DNA from: Acidimicrobiia bacterium | GTDB lineage: Bacteria; Acidobacteriota; Terriglobia; Bryobacterales; Bryobacteraceae | NCBI GenBank assembly: GCA_016871315.1 | Contig: VFZE01000006.1 | Coordinates: 1 to 64,000, forward strand | Length of the DNA stretch: 64,000 nt | Direction of reading: 5' to 3' | Part shown: in pieces, positions 19,590 to 29,518 of the stretch | Numbering within the stretch: position 1 is the stretch's first letter | Layout: every line of letters starts with the position of its first letter | Notes under the pieces: model-generated | The model's database searches: none | Seen by the model: only the letters and a program-made list of their open reading frames with translations | What the model was told of the DNA's origin: nothing | Made by a program: the position numbers and the translations under genes

Positions 19590-21539
19590 TCAGGGTCTCG
19601 GCACGATGCGTGACAGGAGCTTGGAGATATCGAAGCGTGTGCCGACGAAGAAGCGCAGGTCGTCGGTGGCGGGGTCGTCCTTCCCCTTAAACCCGATGTT
19701 GGCGTTGAAGCCGATGTAGAAGGGGGATTGGGGGATCTTGAACCTGCCGCCCAGTTCGGCGCGCCAGGGAACGGGGCGATCCGCGCGGCGGAAATTGGTG
19801 AACTGGCCGAGGGCGACGTCGAGAAAACTGATGAGCTCCGGGGCGACGGTCTGGCGGCGCGGGTCGAGCAGGAAATGGCCGAAGCGGAGGCCATAGCTGT
19901 GCATGGTGTGGAGGCGGCGGAAGAGCGCCGGTGACTCGCGGCCGTCCTTGTCGACCTTGACGGGGCCGGTGGGAGTGGCGAGGACTTGGAAGCGCGCGAG
20001 TGGAGCGAAGAAGAGGGCGTTCTCGCGGCCGTCGAACTTCCAGTTGGCCCAGCGTGGCATCTTGGGGGCGTAGATTTCCACGCCGATGAGGGCGGAGTTG
20101 GACTGCTGGAAAAGCTGGAGGACTTCGGGAGCCGCGGCGGTCCTGCCGCCGGCCACGCCGGCCTGGGCGAGGCGGGCTTCGAAGGCGGTGTTGAGGAGCC
20201 AGCCGCCGGGGACTTCGGAGGGGTCATAGCGTGCGAACTCCTCGAGGGCTTTGTCGAGATTTTCCAGGCGTGCCATCAGGAGAGTTCGGATCGTGCGCAT
20301 GTTGTTTGCCGTGCTGAGTTTCTCTTGATAGGTGTTGTAGATGGTTTGTGTCGTCTGGTAGCCGGCGGTACTCCATCCAATGCTGGTCCCCAGGGAAGTC
20401 ATGTCGAAAAGCCCGACGTGGGATTTGAGAATGGTGATCTGCGCGCGTTCCGAGGCCAGGCATTCGGCGTTGCTGAGGCTGGATTCGAGGTTCTCGATCG
20501 CCTTGGTAAGTACGTCCTGGAAAGCCTTGAGGGCCTGAACGGCAAGACTAACCATCTCGGCGCGTTCCATTGGAGTGGCGTTGTCGCTGGTGAAGTTTGG
20601 GAAGCGCTTGTCGAAGTCATGACCGTCCCAGCGGTCGACTGTTTCCTGAAGCTGTTTGAGTTCCTCGGCGGCGCGGGCGGGGCGGCCGCAGGGGTTGGCG
20701 TAGCGCTCGGGGAGGGTGGAGTGCCAGTTGACGTCGATGTTGAGAGCGAGGAAATAGTCGGCGGAGGTGAATTCGCGCTTGCGCTCCTTCTCTCCGGCAG
20801 CCGTGTTGGTGTCAACGTCCTGGTTGGCGACGGTGGCGCCGGCGCTGAAGTAGGCGCGGACGCGGCCCCAATCGAAGCCGACGGTTTCCACCAGGGCGTA
20901 ATCGGTGGTGGCGCCGATCTCGCCGCCATCTTTGAGTGCGGTGACGCGGACGGTTTGTCCGGCGAAGAGGCGGCGGTTCATGCCTGCGGTGAAGGTTTGC
21001 TGAGGCTGGGTGGCTGTGGCGGCGTTGACGGATGCAGTGTCGAAGTCGGCGAGCGTGCCCTTGGGGTCGAAGACTTCGGCGCGGACCTGGTCGGCGGAGC
21101 CGATGACGGCGCCTTTGATTACCTGGTCGCCTTCCTTGGGAGGCTGGAGCAGTATACGGACGGTGTTTGCCTTGACTTCCACCTTGTCGGATTCTGAACT
21201 GGAGGGTCCGGCAACCCAGACGAGCCAGCCTGCGAGGAGTTTGCCTTCATACTTATCGTCAAGCTTTTTGATGGCGGCGGCGTTATCTGCGCTAACGGAG
21301 CTGAGGGCGAATTCCAGCTGGCCTTGGTTCTCGGCAGTGGCGCTGGCAGTGAGAATGTCCTTGGCTTCAGTTCCCTTGATCTTGATCTGAAGCTTCCACT
21401 CACCCAAGGCGTGGACCTTGGCGCGGATCTTGGATTGTCCGGCAAACAGAGGCGCGTTGATCGCGGGTCTTATCTGGGCGGAAGAGGTTGCCGGGAGCAG
21501 GATCGTGCAGAGAGCAATTAGTTTTCGGAAAGTGGTCAT
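19590..21539 (-). CDS. Exported protein of unknown function (possible outer-membrane barrel end)
   Basis: A 649-residue protein with signal peptide LIALCTILLPATSSAQ. The N-terminal third has two related phrases, LFAGQSKIRAKVHALGEW and LFAGQTVRVTALKDGG, suggesting an internal beta-rich repeat. The middle (about 270-440) is helical (ERAEMVSLAVQALKAFQDVL, TIRTLLMARLENLDKALEEF). The last about 100 residues alternate hydrophobic and polar residues and end SPFYIGFNANIGFKG then FFVGTRFDISKLL, as in small outer-membrane beta-barrels. I do not recognise the family. The start is supported by a strong AGGAGG on the minus strand seven bases before ATG 21539. The start codon overlaps by two bases the ATG of the divergent cupin relic. 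Confidence 0.75.
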   Translation of the reverse strand: MTTFRKLIALCTILLPATSSAQIRPAINAPLFAGQSKIRAKVHALGEWKLQIKIKGTEAKDILTASATAENQGQLEFALSSVSADNAAAIKKLDDKYEGKLLAGWLVWVAGPSSSESDKVEVKANTVRILLQPPKEGDQVIKGAVIGSADQVRAEVFDPKGTLADFDTASVNAATATQPQQTFTAGMNRRLFAGQTVRVTALKDGGEIGATTDYALVETVGFDWGRVRAYFSAGATVANQDVDTNTAAGEKERKREFTSADYFLALNIDVNWHSTLPERYANPCGRPARAAEELKQLQETVDRWDGHDFDKRFPNFTSDNATPMERAEMVSLAVQALKAFQDVLTKAIENLESSLSNAECLASERAQITILKSHVGLFDMTSLGTSIGWSTAGYQTTQTIYNTYQEKLSTANNMRTIRTLLMARLENLDKALEEFARYDPSEVPGGWLLNTAFEARLAQAGVAGGRTAAAPEVLQLFQQSNSALIGVEIYAPKMPRWANWKFDGRENALFFAPLARFQVLATPTGPVKVDKDGRESPALFRRLHTMHSYGLRFGHFLLDPRRQTVAPELISFLDVALGQFTNFRRADRPVPWRAELGGRFKIPQSPFYIGFNANIGFKGKDDPATDDLRFFVGTRFDISKLLSRIVPRP

Positions 21540-22078: not shown

Positions 22079-23407
22079 TCAGCCGGAGGAGTGAAATTCA
22101 TCCGCCATGGCGCTGATCCAGCTCTTGAGCAGCCGCCTGTGTTCCTGAAGGACGGAGGAAGCTGCGTCACTCCGAGCCATGTTGTGCGATTCGCCGGGAT
22201 CGGCCAACAGGTCGAAAAGTTGCTCAGGCCGGGCGCCGCCGTTGAAGCGGACGTATTTGTATCGCGAGGTGCGGAGCATGCGGCCTTCGCGGGATTGGCC
22301 GCCGTAGAGGAGCTCGGAGACGACGAAGGGGCGGGTGAGATGTTGTCCGGTGAGGGCAGGGCGGAGGCTGACGCCGCGTTGGTCAGGAGGGGGAGCGATG
22401 GAGGCAAAATCGCAGAGGGTGGGGAGAATGTCGGCGAGGGAGGCGAGGGAGCGGCGGTCGACCTTGCCTTGATCGACGCCGGGGCCAGCGATGATGAGCG
22501 GGACCTTGGCGGTTTCCTCCCAGAAGGCCGCCTTCTGGACCCAGCGGTGCGCGCCCATGCCTTCGCCATGATCGGAGGCGAAGACGACGAGGGTGTTGCG
22601 GTCCAGTTGGGTGTCGTGGAGGGCTTGAAGGACGCGGCCGATTTCGCGGTCGACATCTTCGACGAAGCGGTAGTAGCCGTGTAAGTAGTGGCGGACGTCG
22701 TCGCGGAGCCATTGGGAAGCGATGCCGACGGCCTGCGACATGAGATCGTAGCCGGTGGTGCGGTGGTATTGGAGGAACTCGGGCTCGAGGGGATCGACAG
22801 CCATGTTTGCGGGCGCGGGCGGGAACTTGCCGATGTCGGGGTAGGAGTGGGCGCCGGGATGGGCGCGGATCCAGTCGCAGATGTCGTGGGGGTTGAGGAA
22901 GGAGGCGACCATGAGGAAAGGGTCCTTCTCCTTGCGGTTGCGGAGCCAGGCGGCGCAGTCGGTGGCGAGCGGGCCGTCCATCTGGGCGCCCTTGCCGGAC
23001 TTGGAAGAGATGCGGCGGAAGCCGCGGACGTCGCCGTTGGGGCGGGGAAGATGCCACTTGCCGCCGTAGACGGTTTCATAGCCGGCCTGGGTGAAGAGCT
23101 CGCCCATGGTGGCCATTCCCGCGTGGATGGCCTGGTTGTTGGCGCGGACGCCGGTTTCGTGCGGCATGCGGCCGGTGAAGATGGAGCCGCGCGAGGGCGA
23201 GCAGACGGGATAGGTACAGTAGGTTTCCGAGAAGCTGACGCCGCGAGCGGCGAGCGAGTCCATGGCGGGAGTTTGGAGCCACGGGTTGCCGGCGGCGGAG
23301 AGGGCTTCAGGGGATTGCTGATCGGTGAGGAGGATGAGGATGTTGGGGCGCTCGACGGGTGCGGCCAAGGAAGCCGCCGCGGTGGAAAGAAAGCTCCTGC
23401 GAGTCAT
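22079..23407 (-). CDS. Sulfatase (FGly-type), Tat-exported
   Basis: A 442-residue type I sulfatase with a twin-arginine start (MTRRSFLSTAAASLA). The active-site signature CSPSRGSIFTGR places the formylglycine precursor at Cys69 within C-x-P-x-R. Metal ligands are visible in PNILILLTDQQ and FASDHGEGMG. The C-terminal part ends in the usual LFDLLADPGESHNMA. Substrate specificity cannot be read, and carbohydrate sulfates are typical targets of such exported enzymes. Maturation needs an anaerobic radical SAM activator or an FGE, and none is evident in the window; the adjacent radical SAM protein is of the HemN type, not AtsB-like. It is divergent from the radical SAM operon across 76 bases. Confidence 0.92.
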   Translation of the reverse strand: MTRRSFLSTAAASLAAPVERPNILILLTDQQSPEALSAAGNPWLQTPAMDSLAARGVSFSETYCTYPVCSPSRGSIFTGRMPHETGVRANNQAIHAGMATMGELFTQAGYETVYGGKWHLPRPNGDVRGFRRISSKSGKGAQMDGPLATDCAAWLRNRKEKDPFLMVASFLNPHDICDWIRAHPGAHSYPDIGKFPPAPANMAVDPLEPEFLQYHRTTGYDLMSQAVGIASQWLRDDVRHYLHGYYRFVEDVDREIGRVLQALHDTQLDRNTLVVFASDHGEGMGAHRWVQKAAFWEETAKVPLIIAGPGVDQGKVDRRSLASLADILPTLCDFASIAPPPDQRGVSLRPALTGQHLTRPFVVSELLYGGQSREGRMLRTSRYKYVRFNGGARPEQLFDLLADPGESHNMARSDAASSVLQEHRRLLKSWISAMADEFHSSG

Positions 23408-23483: not shown

Positions 23484-24842
23484 GTGAACCTAGCGGGGCC
23501 TGGCAGGTTACTTGTGACGACAGAACCCAAGATCGAGCGATCCACTGAGGAAGGCACCAAGGCCGGGAATTATTTTGTCTCGAACTACCCGCCATACTCG
23601 TTCTGGAAACGGGAGCATGCAGGTGAAGCGCAGGCTGTGATCGGACGCCCGCCGGCGGTGGATTCGCCGCTGGGGATCTATGTGCACATTCCGTTTTGCC
23701 GGAAGCGGTGCCATTTTTGCTACTTCAAGGTGTACACGGACAAGAACGCCTCCGAGGTGGATGGGTATCTGGATTCGCTGATCGCGGAGATGGAGATCTA
23801 CGCGAGGCAGCCCTATGTTGGCGGGCGGAAGCCGTCGTTCATCTATTTCGGCGGCGGGACTCCTTCCTATATTTCGACGACACAGCTGACCAGGCTGGTG
23901 GAGGGGATGAAGGGGCTGTTGAGCTGGGACGGCGCCGAGGAAGTGGCGTTTGAATGCGAGCCGGGAACGCTGACCGAACCGAAGCTGCGTGTGATCCAGG
24001 AACTCGGCGTGACGCGGCTGAGCCTGGGGATTGAGAACTTTCACGATGAGGTTTTGCAGGCGAACGGCCGGGCACACCTGTCAAAGGAGATTTACGCGAC
24101 ATACAAGCTGGCGCGGGAGATCGGGTTTTCGCAGATCAATATCGATCTGATCGCGGGAATGGTGGGGGAGACGGATGAGAACTGGCGGAATTCGGTGCGG
24201 CGGACGGTGGAGCTTTCTCCGGAGAGCGTAACGATCTACCAGATGGAGATCCCCTACAACACGACGATCTTTCAGGAGATGAAGGTGTTCGGGGAGACGG
24301 TGGCTCCAGTGGCGGGCTGGGCGAAGAAGAGGGATTGGGTCGGCTACGCGTTTGCGGAACTGGAGAAGGCGGGTTACACGGTGTGCAGCGCCTACACGGC
24401 GGTGAAGGATCCGAAGCAGCGGTTTTTGTACCGGGACATGCTGTGGCAAGGGGCGGACATGCTGGGGCTTGGGGTAGCGTCGTTCTCGCATGTGCAGGGG
24501 GTGCATTTTCAGAACGAGCACGAGTTTGAGATTTACCGGGAGCGGATCGCGCGGGGAGAGTTGCCGATATACCGTGCGCTGAAGCCGTCCGATGAGGACC
24601 GGATGATCCGAGAGTTTGTCCTGCAGATGAAGCTGGGGCGTGTAAGGAAGTCGTATTTTCAGGAGAAGTTCGGCGTGGATGTGGAGCAGCGGTTCGCGGC
24701 TCCGCTGGAGAAAATGCAGGACGAGGGAATTCTGAATCTGGAACAGGGCACGCTGAGGCTGAACCGCGAGGGGCTGTTGCGCGTGGATGGACTGCTGCCG
24801 GAGTTTTTCAAGCCGGAACACCGCGTGGCGAGGCGGGTGTGA
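23484..24842 (+). CDS. HemN-like radical SAM protein, probably not a haem enzyme
   Basis: A 452-residue cytoplasmic protein. YVHIPFCRKRCHFCYF carries the radical SAM cluster ligands Cys72, Cys76 and Cys79 in the HemN-type CxxxCxxC spacing. FGGGTPSY (second HemN motif), RLSLGIENF, INIDLIAGM and the C-terminal HemN-like winged domain (PSDEDRMIREFVLQMKLGRV) follow. The N-terminal extension with SNYPPYSFW is unlike HemN or HemW. Its operon partners (halogenase-like flavoprotein, acyl-CoA ligase, antiporter) suggest a role like the class C radical SAM methylases or cyclopropanases, which share this fold, but that is inference. The start is GTG 23484 with a gagggg site upstream; the stop overlaps the next start as GTGA. 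Confidence 0.85.
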   Translation: MNLAGPGRLLVTTEPKIERSTEEGTKAGNYFVSNYPPYSFWKREHAGEAQAVIGRPPAVDSPLGIYVHIPFCRKRCHFCYFKVYTDKNASEVDGYLDSLIAEMEIYARQPYVGGRKPSFIYFGGGTPSYISTTQLTRLVEGMKGLLSWDGAEEVAFECEPGTLTEPKLRVIQELGVTRLSLGIENFHDEVLQANGRAHLSKEIYATYKLAREIGFSQINIDLIAGMVGETDENWRNSVRRTVELSPESVTIYQMEIPYNTTIFQEMKVFGETVAPVAGWAKKRDWVGYAFAELEKAGYTVCSAYTAVKDPKQRFLYRDMLWQGADMLGLGVASFSHVQGVHFQNEHEFEIYRERIARGELPIYRALKPSDEDRMIREFVLQMKLGRVRKSYFQEKFGVDVEQRFAAPLEKMQDEGILNLEQGTLRLNREGLLRVDGLLPEFFKPEHRVARRV

Positions 24843-26122
24843 AGCAGGAGCGGTTTGATGCGATCGTGATCGGCGGCGGCCCGGCGGGGGCGGCGGCGGG
24901 GGCGGTGCTGGCGAGCAAGGGGCGGCGAGTGGTGATCCTGGAGCGCGAAAAGTTCCCACGGTATCACATCGGCGAGTCGCTATTGCCGTACTGCTACTTT
25001 CCGCTGGAACGGCTGGGGTTGATTGAGAAGCTGAAGGCGTCGCACTTTCCGAAGAAGTACAGCGTGCAGTTTGTTAGCACGGAGGGGCGGCTATCGGTGC
25101 CGTTCTACTTTTTCCAGCACTTCGAGCATGACGCATCGATGACGTGGCAGGTGCTACGCAGCGAGTTCGACCAGATGCTGCTGGACAACGCCCGGGAAAA
25201 GAGCGCGGTGGTGCTGGAGGAGACAACCGTGCGGGAGCTGTTGCGGACCAACGGCGCGGTGACGGGAGTGCAGGCGGTTTCGACGGGCGGGAGCAGCGTT
25301 CAGTTTCATGCGCCGGTGACGATTGACGCGACGGGGCGCGATGCGTTCGCGGTAGGGCGGAACGGTTGGAAAGTGCGCGATCCTTATTTGAACAAGATCG
25401 CGGTGTGGACCTACTACAAGGGGGCGGTTCGCGATCCGGGGTTGGATGAAGGGGCGACGACAGTCGCGTTTGTTCCGGAGAAAGGCTGGTTTTGGTACAT
25501 CCCGCTGCCGGAGGACATGGTGAGCGTGGGTGTGGTGGCGGAGAAGGAGTACCTGTACCGGGACGCGCGGGAGCTGGAGACGATCTTTCAGCGCGAGGTG
25601 AAGAACAACCGGTGGATTGAGGATCACCTGGCGCCGGGCGCGCAGACGGGGCAGTATTTTGTGACGGGCGAGTTTTCCTACCGGTCGCGTTATTGCGCAG
25701 AAGATGGATTGGTGCTCACCGGGGACGCGTTCAGTTTTCTGGACCCGGTCTTTTCCTCGGGCGTGTTTCTTGCGCTGCGCGGCGGGGAGATGGCAGCCGA
25801 CGCCGTGGATGAGGCGCTGGCGGCGGGGGATGTGCGGGCGGAGCGGTTCGCCGATTACGGGGCGCGGTTGTGCGAGGGGATTGAAGCGATGCGGAAGCTG
25901 GTGTACGCCTTCTACAACCCGCGGTTCAGCTTCAAGGAGTTTCTGATGGAGTTTCCGCAGCTGCGCGGAGATTTGACGGATTGCCTGATCGGGAACCTGT
26001 ATCGCGATTTCGAGCCGTTGTTTGGGGCGATGGCGAAGTTCGCCGATGTGCCGGCACCGTTGCCGCATGGAGGGGCACAGAAGAAAGAGGCGGGGAATCT
26101 GTCCGGACATGCGGCCGATTGA
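24839..26122 (+). CDS. Flavin-dependent halogenase-like FAD oxidoreductase
   Basis: A 427-residue FAD protein. AIVIGGGPAGAAAG is the dinucleotide-binding start, FPRYHIGESLLP is the halogenase/CndH-type segment, and GDAFSFLDPVFSSGVFLAL is the second FAD motif. GWFWYIP contains the flavin-dependent halogenase signature WxWxIP (W217, W219, I221, P222), and a Lys pair at 72-73 (FPKKYSVQF) lies where the catalytic Lys is expected. CndH-like (variant B) enzymes usually halogenate carrier- or thioester-bound aromatic substrates, which fits the acyl-CoA ligase encoded next. It could instead be a monooxygenase or reductase of the geranylgeranyl-reductase superfamily. It starts at GTG 24839, coupled to the radical SAM gene, and overlaps the ligase gene by 14 bases. 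Confidence 0.82.
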   Translation: MKQERFDAIVIGGGPAGAAAGAVLASKGRRVVILEREKFPRYHIGESLLPYCYFPLERLGLIEKLKASHFPKKYSVQFVSTEGRLSVPFYFFQHFEHDASMTWQVLRSEFDQMLLDNAREKSAVVLEETTVRELLRTNGAVTGVQAVSTGGSSVQFHAPVTIDATGRDAFAVGRNGWKVRDPYLNKIAVWTYYKGAVRDPGLDEGATTVAFVPEKGWFWYIPLPEDMVSVGVVAEKEYLYRDARELETIFQREVKNNRWIEDHLAPGAQTGQYFVTGEFSYRSRYCAEDGLVLTGDAFSFLDPVFSSGVFLALRGGEMAADAVDEALAAGDVRAERFADYGARLCEGIEAMRKLVYAFYNPRFSFKEFLMEFPQLRGDLTDCLIGNLYRDFEPLFGAMAKFADVPAPLPHGGAQKKEAGNLSGHAAD

Positions 26123-27359
26123 AGCGGAGCAACTGAAGAAGCTGCTCGATCTGCTGAAGGCGGTGCGAGCGGGGAATACATTTTACCGGCGGAAGCTGGA
26201 GGCGGTAGGAGGGATCGGCAGCCTGGAGGAGTATTCGCGCCAGATTCCGTTCACAAGGAAGCAGGAGTTGATGGAGGATCAGATACAGCATCCTCCCTTT
26301 GGGACGAACCTGACGTATCCGCTAGCGCGGTATTCGCGGTTCAGCCAGACAAGCGGGTCGACGGGGAAGCCGATGCGGTGGCTGGACACGGCCGAGAGCT
26401 GGGACTGGATGCTGGGGAACTGGCGGCGCGTGTTTGACGCGGCGGGAGTGACAAGGGAGGATCGTATCTTCTTAGCGTTCTCCTTCGGCCCGTTTCTTGG
26501 CTTCTGGACGGCTTTTGAGGCGGCGGCGAGAGTAGGGAATCTTTGCATTCCCGGCGGCGGGATGCCGAGCGCGGCGCGGCTGGGGGTGATCCTGGACATA
26601 GGCGTTACGGTGCTGTGCTCGACGCCGACGTATGCGATTCATCTGGCGGAGGTGGCGGCGGCGGAGGGGATCGACCTGGGCCGGTCGCGGGTGAAGAGCC
26701 TGATCGTGGCGGGGGAGCCCGGCGGGAGCATCCCGGCGACGAGGCGGCGCCTAGAGACTGTGTGGCGCGGCGCGCGCGTGTGGGATCAACATGGGATGAC
26801 GGAGGTGGGTCCTGTGAGCTATCCGTGCCCGGTGCGAGAGGGCGTGTTGCACGTGATGGAGGATGCTTACTACGCGGAGGTGATCGATCCGGCGAGTGGT
26901 GAGGCGGTGGGCGGCCGAGGTGAGTTGGTGCTGACGAACCTGGGACGAACGGGGTCGCCGCTGCTGCGCTACCGAACGGGAGACATCGTGGAGCGGGGTC
27001 AGGAGACGCGCTGCGCATGCGGAACGGAGGATATGGCGCTGGAGGGCGGGATATTGGGGCGGACGGATGACATGGTGGTGGTCCGCGGAGTAAACGTGTA
27101 TCCTGGCGCGGTGGAGGAGATCCTGCGCTCGGCCGGCGGCGTAGCGGAGTACCGGGTGAAGGTAAGCGAAAGACAATCGCTGGTGGAGCTGAGCATCGAG
27201 GTGGAGCCAGAGACGGCGCATCACGGCGATGAGGGGCTGGCGCACCGGCTGGAGGCGGCCCTGCGGGACGCGCTTTCGTTGCGGGTTCCGGTGACGATTG
27301 CGCCGTGCGGGAGTCTGCCGCGGTTCGAGATGAAGGCGCGGCGCTGGGTCAGAGGTTAA
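26109..27359 (+). CDS. PaaK-like acyl/aryl-CoA ligase (adenylate-forming)
   Basis: A 416-residue ANL-superfamily enzyme close to phenylacetate-CoA ligase. It shows the phosphate-binding loop TSGSTGKP (about residues 81-88), HGMTEVG, YRTGDI and the PaaK-type C-terminal hinge GRTDDMVVVRGVNVYP, with a CxCG metal-like pair before it (TRCACGTEDM). The reaction is expected to be activation of an aromatic or short acyl acid to its AMP ester and CoA (or carrier) thioester. ATG 26109 is chosen because it aligns with the family N-terminus (MRPIEAEQLKKLL) and overlaps the halogenase-like gene by 14 bases; the frame upstream is shadow. It is followed after four bases by the antiporter gene. Confidence 0.88.
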   Translation: MRPIEAEQLKKLLDLLKAVRAGNTFYRRKLEAVGGIGSLEEYSRQIPFTRKQELMEDQIQHPPFGTNLTYPLARYSRFSQTSGSTGKPMRWLDTAESWDWMLGNWRRVFDAAGVTREDRIFLAFSFGPFLGFWTAFEAAARVGNLCIPGGGMPSAARLGVILDIGVTVLCSTPTYAIHLAEVAAAEGIDLGRSRVKSLIVAGEPGGSIPATRRRLETVWRGARVWDQHGMTEVGPVSYPCPVREGVLHVMEDAYYAEVIDPASGEAVGGRGELVLTNLGRTGSPLLRYRTGDIVERGQETRCACGTEDMALEGGILGRTDDMVVVRGVNVYPGAVEEILRSAGGVAEYRVKVSERQSLVELSIEVEPETAHHGDEGLAHRLEAALRDALSLRVPVTIAPCGSLPRFEMKARRWVRG

Positions 27360-27363
27360 GCCG

Positions 27364-28656
27364 ATGCAATCGCCGGTGAACGTGCAGATAGAAAGCGTGC
27401 TGCTGACGGTGATTGTGCAACTTGTAGTGATCATCGCGGCGGCGCGGCTGTTTGGGGTGATTTTCCGGAAGATGGGCCAGCCGCAGGTGTGTGGGGAGAT
27501 TGCGGCGGGGTTGATCCTCGGGCCGTCGCTGCTGGGCGGAATGTTCCCGGAATGGTTCGGGAGGATTTTCGATCCGGCGGTGAGCGGCACGTTCAGCGTG
27601 TTGAGCCAGCTGGGGCTGGTGCTGCTGATGTTTCTGATCGGACTGGAGTTCGATTTCGGGCATCTGGATGAGAACCGGCGAACAGCAGTGTCGGTGTCGA
27701 TCGCGGGGATCGCGCTGCCGTTCGCGCTGGGATTCGGGTTGGGGCGTTTTCTGCACGGGCAACTGGGCTTGCAGGTGGCGTGGATCCACTTCGCTCTGTT
27801 CATGGCGGCTGCGATGTCGATCACGGCGATACCGATACTGGGGCGGATCATGATTGAGCTGGGGATCAACCGGACGCGGATCGGGTCGCTGACGATCTCC
27901 GCGGCGGCGATTGACGATGCGGCGGGCTGGATCATTCTGGCGCTGGTGACAACGAGCGTGCGTTCGGCGTTTGACCCGGTGAAGCTGACGGTGATGATTG
28001 GGGCAGTTCTTGTGTTCGCGCTGGTGATGATGATGGCGGTGAGGCCGGCGCTGATTGGGTGGGGGCGGCGTGTGCTGGCGAAGAACGAGGATCTTTCGAT
28101 GAACGCGCTGGCGGGGCTGTTGATTCTGGTGCTGGTGTCGGCGGCGGTGACGAACCTGATCGGGATCTTTTCGATCTTTGGCGCGTTTTTCTTAGGAGCG
28201 ATCCTGTACGATCAGCAGGAGTTGCGGGAGGCGGTGAAGCGGCGGCTCAGCGATTTCGTGACGGTGTTCTTCCTGCCGATTTTCTTCACGTACACGGGAC
28301 TGCGGACCGATATCGGGACGATGAGCGGGGCGGGGATGTGGGGTTACTGCGGGCTGGTGCTGCTGGCGGCGGTGGTGGGCAAGTTCGGCGGCTGCACCTT
28401 GGCGGCGCGCGTGAACGGGCTAGGGTGGCGCGAAGCGTCGATGATCGGAGTGATGATGAACACGCGGGCGCTGATGGAGCTGATCGTGGTGAACATCGGC
28501 TACGATTTGGGAATCATTCCGAAGAACGTGTTCTTCATGCTGGTGTTCATGGCGGTGTTCACGACATACATTACGGCTCCGTTGCTGCGTCGGCTGGTGA
28601 GGCGGAGCGAGGTGGAAGGGCAGTATATGCAGTCGGTTTTTGCGCGATCGCGATAG
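27364..28656 (+). CDS. CPA2-family cation:proton antiporter (Kef/NapA type)
   Basis: A 430-residue polytopic membrane protein with about 12-13 hydrophobic segments. Family marks are QPQVCGEIAAGLILGPSLLG near the N-terminus, LLMFLIGLEFDF, and the ion-binding pair of acidic residues in AAAIDDAAGWIILAL. There is no C-terminal TrkA-N/RCK domain, so it resembles NapA/GerN rather than KefB/C. It exchanges Na+ or K+ for H+. As fourth gene of the tight operon, four bases after the ligase gene, it may provide ion homeostasis or export for the pathway, but simple co-transcription without functional link is also possible. Confidence 0.9.
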   Translation: MQSPVNVQIESVLLTVIVQLVVIIAAARLFGVIFRKMGQPQVCGEIAAGLILGPSLLGGMFPEWFGRIFDPAVSGTFSVLSQLGLVLLMFLIGLEFDFGHLDENRRTAVSVSIAGIALPFALGFGLGRFLHGQLGLQVAWIHFALFMAAAMSITAIPILGRIMIELGINRTRIGSLTISAAAIDDAAGWIILALVTTSVRSAFDPVKLTVMIGAVLVFALVMMMAVRPALIGWGRRVLAKNEDLSMNALAGLLILVLVSAAVTNLIGIFSIFGAFFLGAILYDQQELREAVKRRLSDFVTVFFLPIFFTYTGLRTDIGTMSGAGMWGYCGLVLLAAVVGKFGGCTLAARVNGLGWREASMIGVMMNTRALMELIVVNIGYDLGIIPKNVFFMLVFMAVFTTYITAPLLRRLVRRSEVEGQYMQSVFARSR

Positions 28657-28853: not shown

Positions 28854-29288
28854 TCAGGAGTGAAGGGGATCTGCGACGTCGAGAAAGCCGAAACGGTGGA
28901 AGCCCATGTCGCGGGTGAGGATGGTCCGGATGCCATGCTCGCGCATGAGGATGGCTGTGTGAGCGTCGTGCAGGATGTTGCCGCGGAGATCGGAATGATC
29001 CTTGAAGAGATCGCGCGCCACGGCCGCATGGCGGCCGGTAGGCGAGAGGACCGTTAGGGAAGGGCTGGCTAACAGGGCTTCGACGAAGGCCCATGCATGT
29101 TTCGCGGACCAGGGTTTTGCCAGCACACGGGGATGCGTAACCACGCGGAGGAATTCATAAACGATTGGCCAGGTGAGGAACCAGGGGTCGGGTTTGCCGC
29201 GGATGCCTTCGAGAAGCCGGCGGCAATGGGCGTGCTCGGCGTAGCTCGAGCAGGCAGCGTAGAGCAGGACGTTGGTGTCGAGCAGCAT
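28854..29288 (-). CDS. vapC: VapC-type PIN-domain ribonuclease toxin
   Basis: A 144-residue PIN-domain protein: MLLDTNVLLYA supplies the first catalytic Asp (D4), WPIVYEFLRVVTHP the conserved Glu, and HDAHTAILMREHG the later Asp, with ILTRDMGFHRF at the end. All acidic positions expected for the metal site appear present. It is a putative tRNA or mRNA endoribonuclease neutralised by the antitoxin encoded just upstream; the two genes overlap by one base (TGATG at 29290-29286). The gene ends about 200 bases after the antiporter gene, in the opposite direction. Confidence 0.88.
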   Translation of the reverse strand: MLLDTNVLLYAACSSYAEHAHCRRLLEGIRGKPDPWFLTWPIVYEFLRVVTHPRVLAKPWSAKHAWAFVEALLASPSLTVLSPTGRHAAVARDLFKDHSDLRGNILHDAHTAILMREHGIRTILTRDMGFHRFGFLDVADPLHS

Positions 29289-29518
29289 CAGATCTCTTCC
29301 ATAGCTTGGTAGAGCATGTCGCGGTTGGAGACATCCACCAAAGCCCTGCCGCCGTCGAAAGCGGGCAGCGGAGGCATGTCCGGGGCAGGCTTGGCGCGGG
29401 TCTTAAGATACTGGCGCAGTGCGGCGTCGACAAGGCTGGACATGGTGGTGGACTGTTGGATGGAGAGTTGCTTAAGCCTTTTGAAGACATGGTCGTCAAT
29501 GATGAGGGTAGTCTTCAT
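29288..29518 (-). CDS. vapB: VapB-type ribbon-helix-helix antitoxin
   Basis: A 76-residue protein beginning MKTTLIIDDHVFKRLKQLS, a typical ribbon-helix-helix DNA-binding start, followed by a C-terminal region that would wrap the toxin (ALVDVSNRDMLYQAMEEI). It heads the vapBC pair and should autorepress the operon. I chose the ATG at 29518 rather than the upstream in-frame start at 29554, because a consensus promoter (29554-29526) covers that interval and positions transcription within a base or two of ATG 29518. Confidence 0.85.
   Translation of the reverse strand: MKTTLIIDDHVFKRLKQLSIQQSTTMSSLVDAALRQYLKTRAKPAPDMPPLPAFDGGRALVDVSNRDMLYQAMEEI

Follow-up and report, generated by a model that had tools for sequence, protein, structure and literature searches.

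The locus described here raises a simple question: do four tightly packed genes, encoding a HemN-like radical SAM (S-adenosylmethionine) protein, a halogenase-type FAD (flavin adenine dinucleotide) protein, a PaaK-like AMP (adenosine monophosphate)-forming ligase and a CPA2-type cation/proton antiporter, serve one common function, and if so, what would they make? The genes lie in a stretch of 64,000 nucleotides (hereafter the window; positions 1 to 64,000 of contig VFZE01000006.1, assembly GCA_016871315.1) from a bacterium recorded as Acidimicrobiia bacterium and placed by GTDB in the family Bryobacteraceae of the Acidobacteriota. A preliminary description, made from the sequence alone, had taken all four genes as very probably one functional unit and had inferred a pathway that activates, halogenates and C-modifies an aryl acid. 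Direct reading of the open reading frames (ORFs) confirmed the operon, with the gene order, overlaps and motifs it had reported: on the + strand, the radical SAM gene (23484-24842; 452 amino acids, aa) overlaps the flavoprotein gene (24839-26122; 427 aa) by four bases, GTGA, the flavoprotein gene overlaps the ligase gene (26109-27359; 416 aa) by 14 bases, and a gap of four bases separates the ligase from the antiporter gene (27364-28656; 430 aa). The respective Pfam domains are Radical_SAM and HemN_C, Trp_halogenase, AMP-binding and AMP-binding_C_2, and Na_H_Exchanger. All four proteins were below the cut-off in every NCBIfam match listed (the best 25 of 47 for the flavoprotein and the best 25 of 26 for the ligase), and each is, as judged from its sequence, a relative rather than a known member of its NCBIfam families. 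We are all but certain that the radical SAM protein, the flavoprotein and the ligase form one functional unit, given their co-occurrence in a draw of 121 genomes, their linkage across 80 loci and the persistence of the ligase at separate sites.

Two samples underlie these statements. Relatives of the radical SAM protein were collected by a pattern scan with one genome per species, which yielded 370, and the best 80 (59-72% identity over the best segment) were used as loci, so that locus counts describe these closer relatives and not more distant members; the locus counts and the count of conserved alignment columns given below exclude rows L001 and L002. The source records of the 80 loci are mostly titled Acidobacteria, Verrucomicrobia, Planctomycetota, Armatimonadota or subgroups of these. 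Separately, 121 genomes of the window's own family were searched at E <= 1e-100 for the radical SAM protein and E <= 1e-80 each for the flavoprotein and the ligase. The loci, and the genomes used below for separate gene copies, partly come from the same assemblies as this family draw (e.g. L004, G013), and the counts are therefore not independent.

In the family draw 21 genomes had the radical SAM protein, 21 the flavoprotein and 22 the ligase; 22 of the 121 genomes had any of the three genes, 20 of these 22 had all three, and the other 99 had none. Pairwise co-occurrence gave Fisher p values of ~1e-20 to 1e-22, uncorrected for kinship among the genomes. Downstream of the radical SAM gene and on the same strand, the flavoprotein gene was present in 64/80 loci and the ligase gene in 45/80. 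Where the flavoprotein was not in place, 5 loci had at least 6 kb of downstream sequence and 11 were cut short; for the ligase the corresponding numbers were 16 and 19. The distance matrices of the three proteins also correlate with one another (Spearman 0.50-0.61 over 39 units; 0/999 permutations).

The strongest evidence for one pathway comes from loci in which the operon is broken. In six of seven genomes whose operon lacks the flavoprotein, another one that is 45-48% identical is encoded elsewhere: on a different contig in five, and at a distance of 12 kb on the operon's own contig in the sixth (L070). These separate flavoproteins all keep the halogenase motifs described below (K73, WxWxIP and Fx.Px.Sx.G). 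Similarly, of 16 genomes in which no ligase is nearby, 12 encode one on another contig (53-64% identity), and in 11 of these 12 separate ligase regions (L221, L223-L232) the gene directly before the ligase encodes a small membrane protein, c8, that also recurs in intact clusters. In a Chthonomonadaceae genome (L233) the separate flavoprotein lies beside a glycosyltransferase, and two further copies stand at contig ends, one with a glycosyltransferase and a thioesterase (L235) and one with a chorismate-lyase-like gene (L236); these two may be the missing continuation of cut operons rather than separate genes. Displaced genes usually persist elsewhere in the genome, and the repertoire is thus kept while the operons break up. 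The subfamily to which the separate flavoproteins belong was seen in three of the 121 family genomes, two of which have no operon copy.

Some genomes speak against so strict a unity. One of them (G102/L021, 87% complete) lacks the flavoprotein and has the radical SAM gene, the ligase and the chorismate-lyase-like gene; among nine further genomes searched, of which seven have loci that are cut short, two (L053 and L067) yielded no flavoprotein; and no ligase was found in 4 of the 16 genomes without a nearby one. In L067, of Armatimonadota type, the radical SAM and chorismate-lyase-like genes are followed by a glycosyltransferase where the flavoprotein would stand, no flavoprotein was found in the 2.6 Mb genome, and this locus is possibly a variant of the pathway without the flavoprotein. 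A different exception (G039) is a contig of 3,133 bases that breaks off within the chorismate-lyase-like gene; in other clusters the radical SAM gene lies on the far side of this gene. No plasmid matched the radical SAM protein at E 1e-60. Overall, co-occurrence in the family draw, linkage across the loci and the separate ligase copies rule out a chance neighbourhood, and the unit proposed in the preliminary description held for its first three genes, which are strongly linked in relatives.

The fourth gene did not hold its place in the unit. The antiporter exceeds the Pfam threshold for Na_H_Exchanger (191.7 bits, gathering score 26.2) and falls short of the narrower NCBIfam model TIGR00932 (148.2 bits, cut-off 238.3), and relatives of it stand downstream on the same strand in only 9/80 loci and in any position in 12/80. 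This low frequency rules it out as a core part, and the antiporter is an optional neighbour. An antiporter of the same family lies on the opposite strand beside the separate glycosyltransferase-flavoprotein pair of the Chthonomonadaceae genome mentioned above (L233:5697-7085), which is a further hint of a link between such antiporters and the pathway.

What, then, might the three proteins do? The radical SAM protein is 25-26% identical to E. coli HemN and HemW and about 58-72% identical to its 80 relatives, with which it shares 135 alignment columns conserved at >=97%. The stretch SNYPPYSFW (23580-23606, +), which the preliminary description had singled out as a divergent N-terminal extension, is present, and is rather a hallmark of the family that aligns with the N-terminal YPT region of HemN (RYTS-YPTALEF in E. 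coli); N34, Y35, P36, P37 and W41 are invariant in 81/81 rows. In the iron-sulfur motif CxxxCxxC (C72, C76 and C79; 23697-23720, +), the position of the fourth cysteine of HemN (CxxxCxxCxC) is occupied by F81, with F in 79/81 and Y in 2/81 rows. Among the 20 NCBIfam models that it matched, all with scores below cut-off, hemN ranked first with 196.8 bits (cut-off 324.95), and the HemW equivalog gave 178.5 bits (cut-off 205.4). The window's genome encodes a separate HemW (L002) that passes the same cut-off with 213.2 bits, and the operon's radical SAM protein forms no tight group with HemN or HemW. It does have the CxxxCxxC motif and the HemN C-terminal domain expected of class C radical SAM methylases. 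According to a structural account of the class C methylase NocN, the second SAM is bound via Tyr34, Tyr96, Arg153, Asp196 and Ser225 (PMC12871812). Counted by eye on the alignment, these residues correspond to Y66, Y121, R178, D221 and T250, i.e. four of five are identical and one is an S-to-T exchange, and all five are invariant in 81/81 rows. Telling against a firm assignment, the genome's own HemW has all five NocN residues and E. coli HemN and HemW differ only at Y96; the residues are therefore compatible with class C chemistry but not diagnostic of it. From its sequence features, the protein may be a class C-type enzyme that transfers one-carbon (C1) units.

The flavoprotein gave a confident AlphaFold2 model (predicted local distance difference test, pLDDT, 92.5), and the eleven best Foldseek rows were all FasV, PltA, ChlB4, CndH, Bmp2 or Mpy16, with TM-scores of ~0.78-0.86 over the query and 28-32% identity; the geranylgeranyl reductase-like 3oz2 appeared only at rank 46. 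In addition to GxGxxG, three halogenase features are conserved. K73 (25055-25057, +) is found in 65/65 rows and is aligned with a lysine of FasV, ChlB4, CndH, PltA and CmlS that we take to be their catalytic lysine; where the preliminary description pointed to Lys72/73, K73 is the invariant residue and position 72 is K in 52 rows and R in 13. The WxWxIP motif (WFWYIP, W217-P222, within GWFWYIPLP; 25487-25504, +) is kept in 62/62 rows with letters there and in 58/58 rows of a second alignment, and Fx.Px.Sx.G (FLDPVFSSG, F300-G308; 25736-25762, +) in 61/61 rows with letters there. In published accounts, WxWxIP is proposed to block hydroxylation, although its exact role is described there as not clear, and residues of Fx.Px.Sx.G form the lining of the tunnel that leads to the halogenation site (PMC10696468, PMC8407142); ChlB4 and Bmp2 are classed as variant B enzymes, acting on tethered substrates (PMC8407142). 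The CmlS equivalog score was 192 bits (cut-off 900). Motifs, NCBIfam matches and best folds agree with the earlier view of a halogenase-like protein, and a flavoprotein of geranylgeranyl-reductase type was rejected on the NCBIfam matches and the Foldseek ranking. Motifs and model together suggest that the protein would halogenate its substrate.

For the ligase, both Pfam domains pass their gathering scores (AMP-binding, 39.5 bits, threshold 29.9; AMP-binding_C_2, 54.9 bits, threshold 25), and the PaaK equivalogs (197.3 and 174.8 bits, cut-offs 700 and 646.3) and the flexirubin ligase FlxY (130 bits, cut-off 520) are missed by a wide margin. Its best solved relative is 2-hydroxyisobutyryl-CoA (coenzyme A) synthetase with 191 bits, followed by phenylacetate ligase with 156 bits.

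Relatives of the operon carry further genes that suggest which acid is activated. Clustering over the loci, which needs 60 bits and 60 codons and covers short proteins poorly, gave 21 recurrent ORF families. The most frequent partners were the chorismate-lyase-like family c3 (41/80 loci), two families of PQQ-type beta-propellers (34 and 20), a 4HBT hotdog thioesterase (32), a GT4 glycosyltransferase (24), the small membrane protein c8 (17), ABC ATPases of mixed type (15) and an FtsX-type permease (6). A Planctomycetota locus (L078) has c3, thioesterase, glycosyltransferase, c8, ABC ATPase and permease together, and the window contains none of c3, thioesterase, glycosyltransferase or c8. By eye, the sequence of c8, whose L078 member has no Pfam match, looks like a half-size DMT-type transporter. 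Upstream of the L078 cluster (L078:4740-8706) lie genes for an AMP-binding protein, an aldehyde dehydrogenase and an iron-containing alcohol dehydrogenase, which look like an acid-to-alcohol reduction module, and both dehydrogenases recur in several loci. No ketosynthase was recognised by eye among the recurrent families, and flexirubin, aryl polyene and dialkylresorcinol clusters, which are otherwise candidate comparisons, were set aside for this reason.

The c3 family is the most informative of these partners. Its AlphaFold2 model (pLDDT 94) best matches the DUF98 protein 2nwi (E 2e-8, Z 16.8 over 143 residues), which is also found by the c3 family profile (E 9.5e-4), and it matches E. coli chorismate lyase 1fw9 with E 4e-5 and Z 11.7 over 141 residues. 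Of 41 c3 members, 41, 41, 37 and 41 have the identical residue at the positions of UbiC Met34, Arg76, Leu114 and Glu155, respectively, and according to PMC7879144 these four contact 4-hydroxybenzoate, Met34 and Leu114 by backbone amides only. Thus, c3 has both the chorismate-lyase fold, which is common to UTRA domains, and the product-contact positions. Within the family draw, c3 occurs in 5/22 genomes with the gene set and 0/99 without it (p = 1.3e-4). These findings point to chorismate-derived hydroxybenzoate as the acid, and the aryl-acid idea of the preliminary description gains independent support from the chorismate-lyase-like gene of relatives, whereas the window's own genome has no recognisable chorismate lyase.

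On this basis we propose that a widespread small-molecule pathway has this operon as its core, and that an aryl acid is converted in it to a thioester, halogenated and given a C1 group; for the chain as a whole, our confidence falls just short of evenly balanced. The model joins the precedent of NosI and NosN, in which an aryl acid activated by NosI is methylated as its thioester by NosN, the thiol being a carrier protein and not CoA (as described in PMC5585349), with the tethered-substrate halogenation of ChlB4 and Bmp2. The PaaK-like ligase would adenylate a carboxylic acid, most likely chorismate-derived hydroxybenzoate, and load it onto a thiol, which could be that of CoA or of a carrier whose gene lies elsewhere. 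Once the ring is activated, the flavoprotein would halogenate it as ChlB4 and related enzymes do, and a one-carbon unit may be added to an sp2 carbon by the HemN-like enzyme with two SAM, like NosN on an aryl thioester. In relatives, the chorismate-lyase-like protein would supply the acid, the hotdog thioesterase may release the product, the glycosyltransferase may decorate it, and the small membrane protein and/or ABC transporter would export it. The CPA2 antiporter is perhaps an optional helper against proton or electrophile stress. A bolder version, in which chorismate is converted without any carrier to hydroxybenzoyl-CoA that is halogenated and C-methylated on the CoA thioester, and this in four or more phyla, whose records here are almost all metagenome assemblies, we consider doubtful.

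Several observations weigh against this proposal. On the side of the thiol, NosI worked with pantetheine but not with CoA and depends on the carrier NosJ (in the experiments described in PMC5585349), a later account places the physiological step of NosN on the peptide-bound acid (PMC12871812), and no carrier-protein family is among the 21 recurrent ORF families, from which short carriers, or carriers elsewhere in the genome, could escape. On the side of the acid, the closest solved relative of the ligase uses an aliphatic one, 2-hydroxyisobutyrate; UTRA effector domains (PhnF, DasR, YvoA) match the c3 model with Z 12.6-13.2, between 2nwi and chorismate lyase; at E 0.1, 0/41 c3 members match PF04345 or PF01947, and one of the 41 weakly matches UTRA (E 0.0088). 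Moreover, among 28 operon genomes without an adjacent c3 (the window's own and those of 27 chosen loci; controls 4/4 positive), 19 have none, eight have a strong copy elsewhere, one of these with an in-frame TAG, and one has a weak copy. The window's genome matches neither the c3 profile nor PF04345 or PF01947, and must therefore obtain the acid in another way or use a different acid. The context of the separate c3 copies showed no recurrent partner beyond shared lineage, and PF01947, searched together with PF04345 in 33 of the 121 family genomes (20 with the three-gene set and 13 without), was not significantly enriched in operon genomes (3/20 vs 0/13, p = 0.21).

How far do other explanations account for the same data? 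The acid could be aromatic and the unit the same, with the flavoprotein acting as a monooxygenase or dehydrogenase and the product being a hydroxylated, C-modified aromatic such as a redox cofactor, a quinone-like compound or a pigment. We regard this as somewhat unlikely: flavoproteins of other or unassigned function, among them 3nix (rank 12) and a Bacillus niacini flavin monooxygenase (rank 34), follow the halogenases in the Foldseek ranking with good scores, there are lower-scoring matches to the NCBIfam models QhpG and GG-red-SF, and strong conservation over several phyla would equally suit a physiological compound, but the eleven best structural rows are all halogenases, and K73, Fx.Px.Sx.G and WxWxIP, the motif proposed to prevent hydroxylation, are invariant. 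An aliphatic acid (short hydroxy or acyl), leading to a lipid or acyl-modified product, with c3 of relatives as a UTRA-type ligand binder instead of an enzyme, would fit the ligase ranking (191 vs 156 bits) and the UTRA scores of c3 given above, including the single weak Pfam match. Its chances appear slim, as the four 4-hydroxybenzoate-contact positions are kept, the best match, DUF98, stands clear at Z 16.8, and the c3 of L078 (L078:11302-11874) measures 190 aa from its GTG start, of which 178 aa are conserved domain, and thus has no room for a DNA-binding domain.

Two further readings concern the radical SAM protein and its setting. Modification of a peptide or protein (a ribosomally synthesized and post-translationally modified peptide, RiPP, or a protein-derived cofactor), similar to the QhpG and LodB flavoproteins that mature redox enzymes, is suggested by sub-threshold NCBIfam matches of the flavoprotein to QhpG, LodB and GoxB, and by the thiopeptide pathways to which NosN and NocN belong. 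Against this, the recurrent extra families resemble enzymes, transporters and beta-propellers (precursor peptides of <60 codons fall outside this search), and in the radical SAM protein Pfam finds no further domain beyond HemN_C; we consider this reading very improbable. That the radical SAM protein is an ordinary haem protein (HemN, HemW or HutW) in a chance neighbourhood has its basis in the HemN_C domain and in hemN as best NCBIfam score, and we give it hardly any credence: the listed equivalogs are all below cut-off, F81 replaces the fourth cysteine, a separate HemW scores above cut-off, and the gene is confined to 21/121 family genomes and tied to two other genes. An ordinary haem protein was rejected on these grounds.

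The surroundings of the operon in the window are genes on the opposite strand, namely a sulfatase (22079-23407) upstream and a PIN-domain protein with a VapB-like partner (28854-29518) downstream. The PIN-domain protein (28854-29288, -) is preceded by the small VapB-like protein (29288-29518, -), whose VapB match (E 0.0009) is below the Pfam cut-off, and the pair directly behind the operon is likely a VapBC toxin-antitoxin system. Further upstream, a 649-aa ORF (19590-21539, -) is without Pfam match. A promoter and terminator scan gave nothing firm: two promoter-like sites (1.1 expected) and ten terminator-like sites (4.2 expected), nearly all within genes.

Every enzyme of the set belongs to a known superfamily, and no description of a pathway joining a HemN-like radical SAM protein, a halogenase-type flavoprotein and a PaaK-like ligase was found in searches of the open-licence PMC literature. 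Near-complete co-occurrence and spread over several phyla suggest that the product has real physiological or ecological value. These host groups are common in soils and have few known metabolites. If the halogenase reading holds, the operon would offer a testable bacterial origin of natural chlorinated aromatics in soil, and if the carrier-free chemistry holds as well, it would define a class of flavin halogenases whose substrates are CoA esters and would provide soils and waters with a steady biological source of organohalogens. The c3 family, in turn, predicts a chorismate-lyase subfamily missed by current Pfam models.

Compared with known systems, the closest analogy for the unit is NosN/NocN with NosI/NosJ, which likewise sets a HemN-like protein beside an acid-activating ligase, has compatible second-SAM residues and involves C1 transfer on an aryl thioester. 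Here, in contrast, no thiopeptide precursor or carrier was found (ORFs of <60 codons were not searched), a halogenase-type gene is added, and relatives have a chorismate-lyase-like gene; the radical SAM protein also has a HemN-type N-terminal motif, whereas NocN, in the account given of its structure, is without the HemN trip-wire (PMC12871812). With HemN, HemW and HutW the window protein shares the Radical_SAM core and the HemN_C domain, and it differs from them in its sub-threshold scores, the missing fourth cysteine and its patchy distribution. The ligase shares AMP-binding and AMP-binding_C_2 with 2-hydroxyisobutyryl-CoA synthetase, phenylacetate-CoA ligase and FlxY, with the PaaK and FlxY cut-offs far off. 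Relative to UbiC and DUF98/Rv2949c, c3 has the same fold and 4-hydroxybenzoate-contact positions, and differs in matching neither PF04345 nor PF01947 and in lying inside this cluster in about half of the loci. Finally, the flavoprotein has the fold, GxGxxG, lysine position, WxWxIP and Fx.Px.Sx.G of FasV, PltA, ChlB4, CndH, Bmp2 and Mpy16, and what sets it apart from these halogenases is that no carrier or synthase family recurs in its clusters and that its gene is paired with that of a HemN-like radical SAM protein.

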